Source: a virus. Taken from it: a stretch of 27,095 bases of DNA. The stretch is taken from positions 1-27,095 of the IMG/VR virus record IMGVR_UViG_3300048580_000483; one strand, 5' to 3'. A model generated the notes under the pieces. That model searched no databases, was not told the DNA's origin, and was given only the letters and a program-made list of their open reading frames with translations. Both the position numbers and the translations under genes were made by a program. Positions 1 to 26,598 of this stretch are shown piece after piece. Within the stretch, counting starts at the first letter, position 1; each line of letters starts with the position of its first letter.

Positions 1-276
1 GCTGCAGTCGATCGACCGGGGGACACCCCCCCTGTGGAAAAACAAAGTGTCCCCCGGTCAGAGGGCGGTTCCGGCAAGGGTGGCGCGACCGGGGGACACC
101 TACCCGAAAAAGGCACCCCCTGTCCCCCGGTCAAAGGCAGTGATACCAAGGGATCTGCCACCGGGGGACACTCTGGGGAATATCCCCCCGCGTGCGCACG
201 CGAGGCAGATGGCTCCGCAGAGAGTGGAGCGGTGTCTGCGGAGGCCCTCACCAACGCCGCCAACCTCTGGGAGTGA
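1..276 (+). CDS. C-terminal end of an unidentified protein (cut by the left edge)
   Basis: The frame is open from base 1 to a TGA at 274-276, giving 91 residues without the N-terminus. The visible part is low complexity, rich in Gly, Pro, Ser and Lys, with no recognisable domain. It ends in a short helical-looking tail (VSAEALTNAANLWE). Three bases separate it from the next gene, so it heads the + strand operon. Most of this segment is occupied by the inverted-repeat array at 14-171, whose copies fall in different reading frames, so the composition seems set by DNA rather than protein needs. By position, just upstream of the polymerase group, it could be the tail of a replication initiator, helicase or primase, but nothing in the visible residues proves that. 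Confidence 0.6.
   Translation, partial: AAVDRPGDTPPVEKQSVPRSEGGSGKGGATGGHLPEKGTPCPPVKGSDTKGSATGGHSGEYPPACAREADGSAESGAVSAEALTNAANLWE
14..171. repeat. Five-copy alternating inverted-repeat array, candidate replication origin
   Basis: GACCGGGGGACAC occurs at 14-26 and 87-99 on +. Its exact complement GTGTCCCCCGGTC lies at 47-59. One-mismatch copies lie at 120-132 (inverted) and 159-171 (direct). Orientation alternates + - + - + and centres are spaced 33, 40, 33 and 39 bp, so same-strand copies repeat every 72-73 bp. Adjacent copies can form hairpins with 12-13 bp stems and about 20-nt loops. TGTGGAAAA at 33-41, inside the first loop, is one base from a DnaA box on the complementary strand. Lambda-type phages place iterons inside the initiator gene, which is the model here. 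The array may continue left of the window. Confidence 0.5.
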
Positions 277-3080: not shown

Positions 3081-3137
3081 CTGCCTGCCTGTGGAGTGTC
3101 GGAGCCTGAAAGCAAGCCGGCGCTCACAGGCAGGCAG
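3081..3137 (+). repeat. Perfect 13-bp inverted repeat at the start of a small gene
   Basis: CTGCCTGCCTGTG (3081-3093) and CACAGGCAGGCAG (3125-3137) are exact complements separated by 31 nt. The first arm ends two bases before GTG 3096. The second arm ends six bases before an alternative in-frame ATG at 3144 and contains AGG repeats that could serve as its ribosome binding site. A folded 5' leader could therefore hide that site; a protein operator is another possibility. There is no U-tract, so it is not a typical terminator. Confidence 0.5.
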
Positions 3138-7704: not shown

Positions 7705-7715
7705 CCTAGTTTTCC
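7705..7715 (-). promoter_or_regulatory. Late motif GGAAAACTAGG upstream of the lysis cassette
   Basis: Exact consensus copy on the minus strand, 16 or 22 nt from the two candidate GTG starts of the small membrane protein gene. It would place holin and endolysin under late control. It lies in the 39-nt gap after the gene ending at 7728. Confidence 0.6.
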
Positions 7716-8203: not shown

Positions 8204-8214
8204 CCTAGTTTTCC
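8204..8214 (-). promoter_or_regulatory. Late motif GGAAAACTAGG overlapping a stop codon
   Basis: Exact consensus copy on the minus strand, 23 nt before GTG 8180. Its TAG (8207-8205) is the stop codon of the upstream frameshift extension, whose last codons are GAA AAC TAG. Confidence 0.65.
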
Positions 8215-11148: not shown

Positions 11149-11171
11149 TGCGGAACGCACACGGATCTACA

Positions 11172-11182
11172 CCTAGGTTACC
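11172..11182 (-). promoter_or_regulatory. Late motif, variant GGTAACCTAGG
   Basis: Matches the consensus at 9 of 11 positions on the minus strand, in the gap after the tail fibre gene stop (11188). The distance to GTG 11148 is 23 nt. Confidence 0.5.
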
Positions 11183-17840: not shown

Positions 17841-17851
17841 CCTAGTTTTCC
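17841..17851 (-). promoter_or_regulatory. Late motif GGAAAACTAGG for the tape measure gene
   Basis: Exact consensus copy on the minus strand, 23 nt before GTG 17817. Its partner at 17860-17870 faces the other way, eight bases apart, making a divergent pair. The leader lacks a clear Shine-Dalgarno sequence close to the start. Confidence 0.7.
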
Positions 17852-17859
17852 GGCGGGGT

Positions 17860-17870
17860 GGGAAACTAGG
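17860..17870 (+). promoter_or_regulatory. Late motif GGGAAACTAGG facing the inverted cassette
   Basis: The only strong + strand copy found, with 23 nt to ATG 17894 (GGAGGG ribosome site between). Orientation follows the gene it serves, not the arm as a whole, which supports a directional signal such as a promoter. Confidence 0.7.
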
Positions 17871-17893: not shown

Positions 17894-18283
17894 ATGTCGG
17901 CGCTGCAGGCTCTGGAGAACTCGACGCTGACCTTTGTGGTTCCGGCGGCGGGGACCTCGGTGGATCCCGAGACAGGGAACGTGGTGGCCAACACGGAGAC
18001 GATTGAGTGTGCGGCGTACCTGAAGGCGGAGAGCGTGGCGGAGGCGACGTACCCCGGGGTGAACGTGGTGAGCACCTTGTACGAGGGCTACATCACGTCG
18101 GGGGCGCTCGACTCACGGGTTGTGGTGGGGAGCAGCGGGGAGGTGGAGTTTGCGGGGGCCGGCCCGGTGGAGTGCGAGGTGTTGGAGGCGAGGCTGCCGT
18201 ACGGGACGGCCGGGTTGCTGGGGGAGGTGCTGACCGGGGTGCTGGGTAGCAAAGTGAGACTCGTGAGTCGCACCCAGAGCTGA
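17894..18283 (+). CDS. Putative head-tail joining (stopper-type) protein, 129 aa
   Basis: Starts at ATG 17894 with GGAGGG upstream and ends overlapping the next ATG by one base. The product is beta-rich: TLTFVVPAAGTSVDPETGNVV, then YEGYITSGALDSRVVVGSSGEVEF and a C-terminal barrel-like segment. Size, beta content and location next to a tail completion protein suit a head-closure or stopper protein joining connector and tail. It lies on the opposite strand to all surrounding virion genes. The role is inferred from context and general pattern. Confidence 0.65.
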   Translation: MSALQALENSTLTFVVPAAGTSVDPETGNVVANTETIECAAYLKAESVAEATYPGVNVVSTLYEGYITSGALDSRVVVGSSGEVEFAGAGPVECEVLEARLPYGTAGLLGEVLTGVLGSKVRLVSRTQS

Positions 18284-18789
18284 TGGCGCGGACGAAGCTG
18301 GTGATCAAAGAGTGGAACGCGGCGGCGCTGGTGCAGCGTTCCACCCGGATCCTTGAGGACTACGCGCCGATCATCGCGGAGGAGGCGCGGACGCAGATCA
18401 AGACGGTCAAGTGGAACTGGCCGAACTCGACGCTGCGGTTCCGCAGTTTGTTCATGGGCGGGAAGACGGTGCGCACCACGCTGGGGACGGGAGTGGTGAT
18501 ACCGCAGGGCAAGCGGGACATCGTGGACACCGGGGCGCTGCTGGCGTCGCAGCAGGTGCCGCGGGTGGCGGAAGGGAGCCTGACCATCGCGTGGACGGCG
18601 CCGCATGCGCTGGACGTGCTGCGCGGGTCGTACCCGGATTCGTACTTCAGCCCGGTGTCGCGGAAGGTAGTGCCGGCGCCAGGCAAAAAGCCGCCTCGAA
18701 ACTGGATCGAGGCGGCGTTGGAGGCGCAACCACCGCTGCCGTTCTTTGTGCAGCGGTGGAGGCAGTTGGCGGCGGAGCAGGCGCCTTAG
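18283..18789 (+). CDS. HK97 gp10-like tail completion protein, 168 aa
   Basis: ATG 18283 overlaps the preceding stop by one base. Long N-terminal helix (ALVQRSTRILEDYAPIIAEEARTQI), then GALLASQQVP with a following ITIAWTAPHALDVLRG segment, which follow the gp10/minor-tail pattern of a TGxLxxS block and a later alanine-valine-glycine block. C-terminal PRNWIEAAL continues this layout. Such proteins help join tail to head. The stop sits in a tandem GGCGCCTTA repeat, five bases from the end of the convergent major tail gene. Confidence 0.7.
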   Translation: MARTKLVIKEWNAAALVQRSTRILEDYAPIIAEEARTQIKTVKWNWPNSTLRFRSLFMGGKTVRTTLGTGVVIPQGKRDIVDTGALLASQQVPRVAEGSLTIAWTAPHALDVLRGSYPDSYFSPVSRKVVPAPGKKPPRNWIEAALEAQPPLPFFVQRWRQLAAEQAP

Positions 18790-18797
18790 GCGCCTTA
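18780..18797. repeat. Tandem GGCGCCTTA repeat between convergent genes
   Basis: GGCGCCTTA occurs at 18780-18788 and 18789-18797. GGCGCC-TTA-GGCGCC can form a six-bp hairpin. It provides the TAG stop of the + gene (18787-18789) and the TAA stop of the - gene (18797-18795). No T-tract follows on either strand. It may mark the junction of the inverted cassette. Confidence 0.5.
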
Positions 18798-19556
18798 GGC
18801 GACGGTGGCCACGGTGAAGACCGGGACCACATCGGCGCCCGCTCCACCCACGTCGCCCATCGCCACGGTGAGGGTGTCGCCGACCTTGAAGTTGCCGCCG
18901 CCGGAGACGACCGTGGGGGCAGCGGTGACGGTGCCACCGGCGGCGACGACGATGCTGGCGGTGGCGCCTTTGCCGGAGCCGATGCCGGGGGCGGGGCTGA
19001 CCGGGATCAGGGCGACGTTGCTATAGGTGGCGGCGGTGAGGCCGGAGCCGGCGCTGGTGACGGTCAGGGTGGCGATGGCCTTGCCTTGGCCGTAGAAGTC
19101 GTAACGGCCGTAGCCGTTGAGGGTGAAGCTCACCTTGGCGATGTTGCCGGCGGTGATGTCCTCGGAGAAGTCGCTGACCTGAGCAAGGCCGGAGTGGACT
19201 TCGGGGTTGCTACCCGAGCCATCGGTGACGGGGGTTTCGCGGTACCACTCCAGGAGGACGCCGCTGGCGGCTTGGAGGGAGGCGATTTTGAGGATCTCGT
19301 AGCCAGCGTCGCTGACATCGAGGTTCATTGAGCAGGGGATGCTGTAGCTCTGGCTCGTGATGAGGTTGTTCTGGAAGCCGAACTCGGAGTCGTAGTCGAG
19401 GACAGAGGTGGATTCGCTGGTGCCCTGGATGCCGGTGTTGTCCAGCGACAGGATGCGGGTCATCCCGGCGGACGTGGTGGGGATGGTGCTGGCGCTGGTG
19501 CCGAGTTTGACGAAGGTCTTGTAGCCCAGGGCTGCAAAGAATCTGCCGGTGGCCAT
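18795..19556 (-). CDS. Major tail (tube) protein, 253 aa
   Basis: Likely the repeating subunit of the tail tube. ATG 19556 lies 23 nt from the late motif at 19580-19590. Beta-rich throughout: ATGRFFAALGYKTFVKLG at the N-terminus, DYDSEFGFQNNLITSQSYSI, then DFSEDITAGNIAKVSFTLNGYGRYDF, features seen in tail tube proteins. From about residue 165 an Ala/Gly/Val-rich region (TVTSAGSGLTAATY, SIVVAAGGTVTAAPTVVSGGG) looks like a surface Ig-like or bacterial decoration domain added to the tube core. Upstream is the short sigma gene, which ends inside the shared motif. Confidence 0.75.
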   Translation of the reverse strand: MATGRFFAALGYKTFVKLGTSASTIPTTSAGMTRILSLDNTGIQGTSESTSVLDYDSEFGFQNNLITSQSYSIPCSMNLDVSDAGYEILKIASLQAASGVLLEWYRETPVTDGSGSNPEVHSGLAQVSDFSEDITAGNIAKVSFTLNGYGRYDFYGQGKAIATLTVTSAGSGLTAATYSNVALIPVSPAPGIGSGKGATASIVVAAGGTVTAAPTVVSGGGNFKVGDTLTVAMGDVGGAGADVVPVFTVATVA

Positions 19557-19579
19557 CGTGAGTCCTGAGACGCTATACG

Positions 19580-19590
19580 CCTAGTTTGCC
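19580..19590 (-). promoter_or_regulatory. Late motif GGCAAACTAGG for the major tail gene
   Basis: Minus strand copy, 23 nt before ATG 19556. Its TAG (19583-19581) is the stop of the short sigma factor gene (GCA AAC TAG). Confidence 0.65.
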
Positions 19591-20126
19591 CCTATCAGCT
19601 CGGGGGACTCCAGCTCGCTGAGTTCGAGTACGTCCCATGGCGTGGGGCGGGGGCAGATGTGGTCGCGAAAGCCGCGGATGTCGTGGTCGAGCGACTGCAC
19701 GGAGAAGATGGCGAGCTTCAGGGCCTCGGGGGTGGTGCCGAGTTCCTCGCATACGAAGTCCGGGGAGAGACCGGCGCGGAGCATGTAGCGGGCGCGGAGG
19801 CCGAGCGACCGGACGGAGGCGGGGGCCTTGACGGACCAGTTCTGATCGCGGATGAAGTGGCGGACCTCGCCGACGCTGAAGACGCCTAAGAGGGTAGAGA
19901 ATGTACCCTTGTCGGGGTTCCACGCCCGGCAGGTCTTGATGAAAGCGACGTTGATGCAGCTATAGATGTCCTCGGCGCGGACGCCCTTGTACTTGCGGCA
20001 GAGTTTGCGGCCCATGTGGTTCACGAGGCCGCCGTGTTCGCGGTAGAGGCGTGCCACTCGGCGCTGTTCCTCGCGGTCGAGCGGGGTGGCGAGGTAGCCG
20101 CGGGGTTGAGTCTTCTTGGTGCTCAT
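19581..20126 (-). CDS. Short sigma-70 family factor lacking region 4 (late sigma candidate)
   Basis: 181 aa. Residues about 21-105 match sigma region 2: LYREHGGLVNHMGRKL (2.1), EDIYSCINVAFIKTCRAWNPDKGTFST as 2.2-2.3 in two parts, and GEVRHFIRDQNWSVKAP (2.4), as in alternative sigma factors of the SigB/SigF kind. Residues 119-146 form a region-3-like helical unit (LSPDFVCEELGTTPEALK). The remaining 35 residues are acidic and hydrophobic and there is no region 4 helix-turn-helix. Length and layout recall T4 gp55 (185 aa), which binds only a -10-type element. It lies among head-tail genes behind a degenerate copy of the late motif, so it may sustain its own expression. Confidence 0.8.
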   Translation of the reverse strand: MSTKKTQPRGYLATPLDREEQRRVARLYREHGGLVNHMGRKLCRKYKGVRAEDIYSCINVAFIKTCRAWNPDKGTFSTLLGVFSVGEVRHFIRDQNWSVKAPASVRSLGLRARYMLRAGLSPDFVCEELGTTPEALKLAIFSVQSLDHDIRGFRDHICPRPTPWDVLELSELESPELIGAN

Positions 20127-20147
20127 GCGAGCAGCCTAACGACTACC

Positions 20148-20158
20148 CGCAGTTTTCC
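20148..20158 (-). promoter_or_regulatory. Degenerate late motif before the short sigma gene
   Basis: GGAAAACTGCGG on the minus strand shares GGAAAACT exactly but has GC in place of the A before GG. The spacing to ATG 20126 is 20-21 nt. Weaker match than the others. Confidence 0.4.
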
Positions 20159-21134: not shown

Positions 21135-21145
21135 CCTAGTTTTCC
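21135..21145 (-). promoter_or_regulatory. Late motif GGAAAACTAGG overlapping a stop codon
   Basis: Exact consensus copy on the minus strand, 23 nt before ATG 21111. Its TAG (21138-21136) ends the upstream 55-aa gene (GAA AAC TAG). Confidence 0.7.
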
Positions 21146-24050: not shown

Positions 24051-24180
24051 CGGACAGGCTCTCCTTGCTCCTAGTTTTCCGCGGGCTGGGGGGTGGTGGG
24101 GACGCCGGAGCGGGGGTACTGCGGCCTGTGACCGCGGCGGCTTCTTGGGCGCGTAGGCGCCGGAAGGTCATCATGCCCAT
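23983..24180 (-). CDS. Possible small basic protein, 65 aa, overlapping the fibre gene
   Basis: ATG 24180 opens a frame MGMMTFRRLRAQEAAAVTG followed by a Pro-rich segment, then runs through the late motif and 68 bases into the fibre gene. The stretch 24081-24180 has no other gene. The overlap and lack of a stop before the motif make it uncertain. It might be a short protein truncated in nature or noise. A 40-codon frame ending EN-stop at the motif has no start codon. Confidence 0.3.
   Translation of the reverse strand: MGMMTFRRLRAQEAAAVTGRSTPAPASPPPPSPRKTRSKESLSDAASTDPQAHQGHPADSGRARR
24070..24080 (-). promoter_or_regulatory. Late motif GGAAAACTAGG for the fibre gene
   Basis: Exact consensus copy on the minus strand, 19 nt before ATG 24050. 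A terminator lies upstream at 24202-24225, so this may restart transcription after the capsid genes. Confidence 0.65.
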
Positions 24181-26587: not shown

Positions 26588-26598
26588 CCTAGTTTGCC
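26588..26598 (-). promoter_or_regulatory. Late motif GGCAAACTAGG for scaffold and capsid
   Basis: Minus strand copy, 21 nt before GTG 26566, in the gap after the head protein stop at 26628. It would drive scaffold, capsid and decoration genes until the terminator near 24202. Confidence 0.6.

Follow-up and report, generated by a model that had tools for sequence, protein, structure and literature searches.

A sigma factor without region 4 as the probable reader of a −10-only late promoter in siphovirus-like phages of probably cyanobacterial hosts

Can a sigma factor that lacks region 4 serve as the late sigma of a siphovirus-like phage, and which promoter would it read? The question arises from a 27,095-nucleotide viral sequence (IMG/VR record IMGVR_UViG_3300048580_000483, positions 1 to 27,095; hereafter the window), whose late arm holds both a small sigma-like gene and repeated copies of a short motif, GGNAAACTAGG. 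The textbook example is T4 gp55, a sigma that lacks region 4 and depends on gp33 and the sliding clamp gp45. Its activity at a −10-only late promoter is the precedent for such an arrangement (PMC2988020), and a preliminary description of the window had guessed that the small protein reads the repeated motif in the same manner. On the evidence assembled here, we consider it probable that this 181-aa protein is a late sigma that reads GGNAANYTAGG, the family form of the motif, as a −10-only promoter, and that its own gene is transcribed from a host-type TANNNT promoter.

We began with the protein. The preliminary description had assigned it region 2 and a region-3-like unit with no region 4, an assignment that stands, with the strand corrected: the reading frame runs on the minus strand from the ATG at 20126 to the TAG at 19583-19581. 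The comparison with sigma-70 region 2 suggested at that time yielded a Pfam Sigma70_r2 (PF04542) match to residues 27-97 that scored just over the curated cut-off (24.6 bits, gathering score 24, E = 2e-5); the same Pfam search of the window protein returned no region 3, no region 4 and nothing else notable. PHROG 351, labelled "sigma factor", matched residues 22-149 (E = 6e-14). In an alignment set of 50 diverse relatives sharing 45-100% identity, Sigma70_r2 matched all 50 members, and neither Sigma70_r3 nor Sigma70_r4 matched any of them at E < 0.1. The relatives terminate at or shortly past a conserved tail, with a nearly identical endpoint, so the truncated appearance of the window protein is not the result of a frameshift. 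Judged by eye, this tail (SLDHDI...CPRPTPWxxLE) resembles region 3.2, and the small sigma thus seems to end at the border of region 4.

When the family profile was compared with solved structures, the best match was the sigma factor 8x6g_H (E = 1e-6, over regions 2-3), followed by 1l0o chain C, making SigB/SigF-type group 3 sigmas the nearest solved relatives by sequence. These two top matches and helices at residues 103-141 make the family a candidate member of group 3, with the Pfam region 3 model unmatched. SigB/SigF-type sigmas themselves possess region 4 and work with a −35 element. An AlphaFold2 model of the small sigma (pLDDT 72) placed helices up to residue 141 and another at 163-172, and Foldseek searches with this model against two libraries returned mainly sigma factors, with a best E-value against the PDB of only 2e-3. 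The two methods agree in predicting a sigma fold.

We next examined the motif. Eight exact copies of GGNAAACTAGG are present in the window, all in the late arm, and together with a variant at 11172 the total is 9 compared with 0.13 expected under a Markov model (Table 1). The motif picked out in the preliminary description is therefore real, but its exact form proved too narrow: as a family-wide marker it fails below about 60% sigma identity. A de novo k-mer search of gene junctions in relatives with less than 60% identity recovered GGAAACCTAGG, GGCAACTTAGG and GGAAATCTAGG, from which we derived the family form GGNAANYTAGG that is used throughout. The divergent copies at 17841-17870 lie 8 nt apart and form an inverted repeat; the pair flanks two late genes that are inverted relative to the rest, an inversion kept in relatives.

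Table 1 Coordinates of the small sigma gene, the putative late promoter motifs and associated features in the window.
Feature	Sequence	Position	Strand	Remark
Small sigma factor, 181 aa		19581..20126	−	Region 2, region-3-like unit and region-3.2-like tail, without region 4
Small sigma, region 2		residues 27-97		
Small sigma, region-3-like unit		residues about 98-142		
Small sigma, region-3.2-like conserved tail	SLDHDIRGF..HICPRPTPWDVLE	residues about 143-172		Assigned by eye
Putative host-type −10 (TANNNT) of sigma gene	TAGGCT	20133..20138	−	6 nt before ATG
Degenerate late-motif copy	GGAAAACTGCG	20148..20158	−	2 mismatches; upstream of sigma gene
Putative late promoter motif	GGAAAACTAGG	7705..7715	−	Gene start 7688
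Putative late promoter motif	GGAAAACTAGG	8204..8214	−	Gene start 8180
Putative late promoter motif, variant	GGTAACCTAGG	11172..11182	−	Gene start near 11160
Putative late promoter motif	GGAAAACTAGG	17841..17851	−	Gene at tape-measure position, start 17817; half of divergent pair
Putative late promoter motif	GGGAAACTAGG	17860..17870	+	Only plus-strand late genes of the window, 17894-18283 and 18283-18789
Putative late promoter motif	GGCAAACTAGG	19580..19590	−	Tail-protein gene; overlaps sigma stop codon; predicted +1 at 19576
Tail protein gene		18795..19556	−	First gene downstream of the motif at 19580..19590
Putative late promoter motif	GGAAAACTAGG	21135..21145	−	Gene start 21111
Putative late promoter motif	GGAAAACTAGG	24070..24080	−	Gene start 24050
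Putative late promoter motif	GGCAAACTAGG	26588..26598	−	Scaffold gene, start 26566, upstream of major head protein gene
RpoD-like full-length sigma, 311 aa		4920..5855	+	Regions 1.2, 2, 3 and 4; encoded in early arm; may read TANNNT promoters

Relatives of the small sigma occur in at least 85 viral contigs. The gene order is the same in six contigs of 43-50 kb: scaffold, head protein, adaptor, small sigma, motif, tail protein, a divergent gene and the tape-measure gene. The major head protein of the window is closest to those of the Synechococcus phages S-H1 and KBS-S-2A, and one contig carrying a relative with 48% identity (L144) was binned with an uncultured cyanobacterium. A cyanobacterial host is therefore probable, and from sequence comparison the carriers of the small sigma are probably siphovirus-like phages of such hosts. 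A further 3.3 kb contig (L143), from a metagenome-assembled genome binned as Rhodoferax, carries a sigma relative with 61% identity along with the motif and is probably a misbinned phage contig.

Across the family loci, GGNAANYTAGG matched 248 times, compared with 4-22 matches for four permuted patterns. The start codon of an open reading frame lay 11-30 nt downstream of the motif at 83% of 132 non-redundant sites, compared with 12% of random positions. Copies lie in the late arm and are oriented with the downstream gene on either strand, as also in the divergent pairs on both sides of an inverted block of genes; we found none in the early arms of the mapped family contigs. At the junction between the sigma and tail genes, 49 of the 53 loci examined have a copy that departs from the motif at no more than two positions and often overlaps the stop codon of the sigma gene, and a good copy was missing from the other four (L024, L027, L083 and L086). 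Some loci contain only copies with one or two mismatches; for instance, the apparent exceptions L131 and L090, which lack an exact copy, have one-mismatch copies before gene starts.

The distribution of the motif follows that of the small sigma. The six family contigs, which as related genomes are not independent samples, contain 46 copies in 276 kb; 13 phage sequences that lack the small sigma contain 3, near chance, in a total of 420 kb. The motif accompanies the small sigma in essentially all relatives, including those at 45-48% identity. The earlier guess that pairs the two thus gains comparative support, especially as the motif is near chance in controls that have an RpoD-like sigma only.

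These controls bear directly on the possibility that the motif is a promoter read by an RpoD-like or host sigma, with the small sigma acting on another target or as a helper. Host polymerase would be required in any case, and every family contig of at least 39 kb encodes an RpoD-like sigma, which makes a joint role with the small sigma possible. However, KBS-S-2A, S-CBS1, S-CBS2, S-CBS3 and S-LBS1 also encode an RpoD-like sigma and contain 0-1 motif matches, and the motif has no −35 partner and is unlike TANNNT, which instead precedes the sigma gene. We therefore regard this explanation as unlikely. Like the RpoD-like sigma of the window, the group 2 sigmas of the related phages KBS-S-2A, S-CBS1, S-CBS3 and S-LBS1 are phage-encoded; they differ from the small sigma in being full length with region 4 and in not having the motif alongside. 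As for a partner protein consisting of region 4 only, the extra Sigma70_r4 matches looked like an HNH-type protein (L112) and small membrane-plus-HTH proteins (L113, L114, L116). The latter represent a conserved protein of 63-98 aa (L113 1489-1680, minus strand; L114 1396-1587, plus strand; L116 1288-1584, plus strand) that combines a hydrophobic helix at the N-terminus with a helix-turn-helix resembling region 4. It is encoded where the late arm begins, close to a TerS-like gene, and is possibly a regulator.

The columns surrounding the motif bear on whether it is itself the −10 element. Aligned on the motif, 91 of the 132 sites have A at position 14, with no strong conservation elsewhere outside the motif. 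With position 14 taken as +1, the A and the T that never vary within the motif come to lie at −11 and −7, the positions whose bases are flipped out by sigma region 2. In this favoured register, which is based on column statistics, the motif would span −14 to −4 with GG at −14/−13 and AGG as the discriminator, and transcription would begin at the A 4 nt downstream of the motif. By another account, the motif would be the binding site of a phage activator just upstream of a TANA-type −10 box, much as MotA boxes work upstream of a −10 box at T4 middle promoters. Positions 13-16 are A-rich and some sites read GTATAA or TATATA, as this arrangement would have it, but only position 14 is strongly conserved, the T-7 expected at position 18 is depleted, occurring in 17 of the 132 sites, and the A-11/T-7 spacing is already present within GGNAANYTAGG. 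Because T-7 is not enriched, we dropped the TANA register and consider the activator-site account quite improbable. We give very little credence to the idea that the motif works in RNA, as a translation or processing signal: although it sits close ahead of start codons, only some late genes have it, mainly those at transcription-unit starts, while tightly coupled genes do not, and its distance to the start codon varies from about 15 to 32 nt. Nor were Shine-Dalgarno sequences enriched behind the motif among the 132 sites, which also speaks against a role in RNA; they occurred only as anecdotal cases, so their spacing could not be used to fix the transcription start. A −10-only promoter read by the small sigma thus remains our preferred reading of the motif.

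The gene for the small sigma itself appears to be governed by a promoter of a different class from the late motif, a new finding from sequence comparison. A TANNNT hexamer, mostly beginning at −12, lies near the sigma start codon in 38 of 42 relatives when starts are chosen mechanically. Allowing alternative starts raises this to 41 of 42, with TANNNT 11-15 nt upstream of an in-frame start, but that count lets the motif choose the start and the former is therefore the stricter figure. In comparison, TANNNT was found at 7% of 82 motif-led late genes and in 11% of shuffles. T-12, A-11 and T-7 are fixed and the three middle bases are free, giving 18 different hexamers; there is also a preference for C at −8 and G at −6, so autoregulation of the sigma is possible. 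A hexamer about 6 nt before the ATG implies that the sigma mRNA is leaderless and read by a host-type sigma. Leaderless genes in Deinococcus have TANNNT at the same spacing, about 6-7 bp before the open reading frame (PMC12340547). Elsewhere in the window, TACACTG and TAGACTG lie 26-30 nt before the early-arm open reading frames at 3096 and 3332; they resemble the sigma-gene promoter and perhaps represent a middle promoter class.

How does this system relate to known ones? Like T4 gp55, the small sigma has about 180 aa, a region-2 core, no region 4 and, in what we take to be its promoter, a short −10-only late element (PMC2988020). Sequence similarity between the two is undetectable (hhalign probability 0.2). 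The small-sigma family is instead similar to group 3 sigmas, with a region-3-like unit, its gene sits within the late structural operon, and its motif, GGNAANYTAGG, is not the T4 late box. A bacterial-type beta clamp (PF02768), a candidate for T4-like coupling, was absent from ten family contigs. In T4, gp33 mimics sigma region 4 on the beta flap; its homologues are highly variable. Taken together, the window sigma likely works like gp55 yet lies outside the gp55 family. The portion of the literature we covered contained no phage sigma without region 4 beyond T4.

The preliminary description also considered a second sigma unusual in a siphovirus-like phage. RpoD-like sigmas are in fact common among cyanosiphoviruses, and two sigmas in one cyanosiphovirus are already known from the Prochlorococcus siphovirus P-SS2, whose sigmas belong to groups 2 and 3 (PMC2784084). 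The second of these, ORF003 (213 aa), is likewise a small sigma beside a group 2 sigma; it matches Sigma70_r2 with no Pfam region 4 match (L138 2091-2732) and aligns with the small-sigma family over regions 2-3 (hhalign 97.9%). The passages of the published account considered here make no mention of region 4 loss in the protein (PMC2784084). In contrast to the window sigma gene, ORF003 follows terL and not the head-tail adaptor gene, and the protein has a different tail. The 50 kb of P-SS2 searched contain one GGNAANYTAGG match, about chance, and a de novo search for a late motif in this phage gave no convincing candidate. A TAGACTG lies upstream of ORF003 (L138).

Since the motif precedes structural genes and occurs above chance only where the small sigma does, these phages probably switch on their late genes by means of a split-off sigma. 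In the circuit we propose, a host-type sigma would produce the small sigma from the TANNNT promoter as a leaderless mRNA; placed on such a promoter, the gene could be expressed before any late promoter works. The small sigma, made first, would displace the host sigma on core RNA polymerase, read GGNAANYTAGG without region 4 or a −35 box, and then activate the late operons on both strands. We lean somewhat towards the view that a region-4-less late sigma arose in cyanobacterial phages independently of T4 gp55, as a group-3-type protein trimmed at the region 3.2/4 border, with a −10-only promoter class and a leaderless gene inside its own operon, perhaps working without a sliding clamp or gp33-like partner.

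If true, this would constitute a second solution, unrelated to gp55 and with a well-defined class of promoter, and sigma and promoter could be studied jointly across at least 85 variants found in nature. It would reveal the minimal sigma needed for initiation at specific promoters, and late promoters could be annotated in a large group of uncultured siphoviruses whose hosts are probably cyanobacteria.
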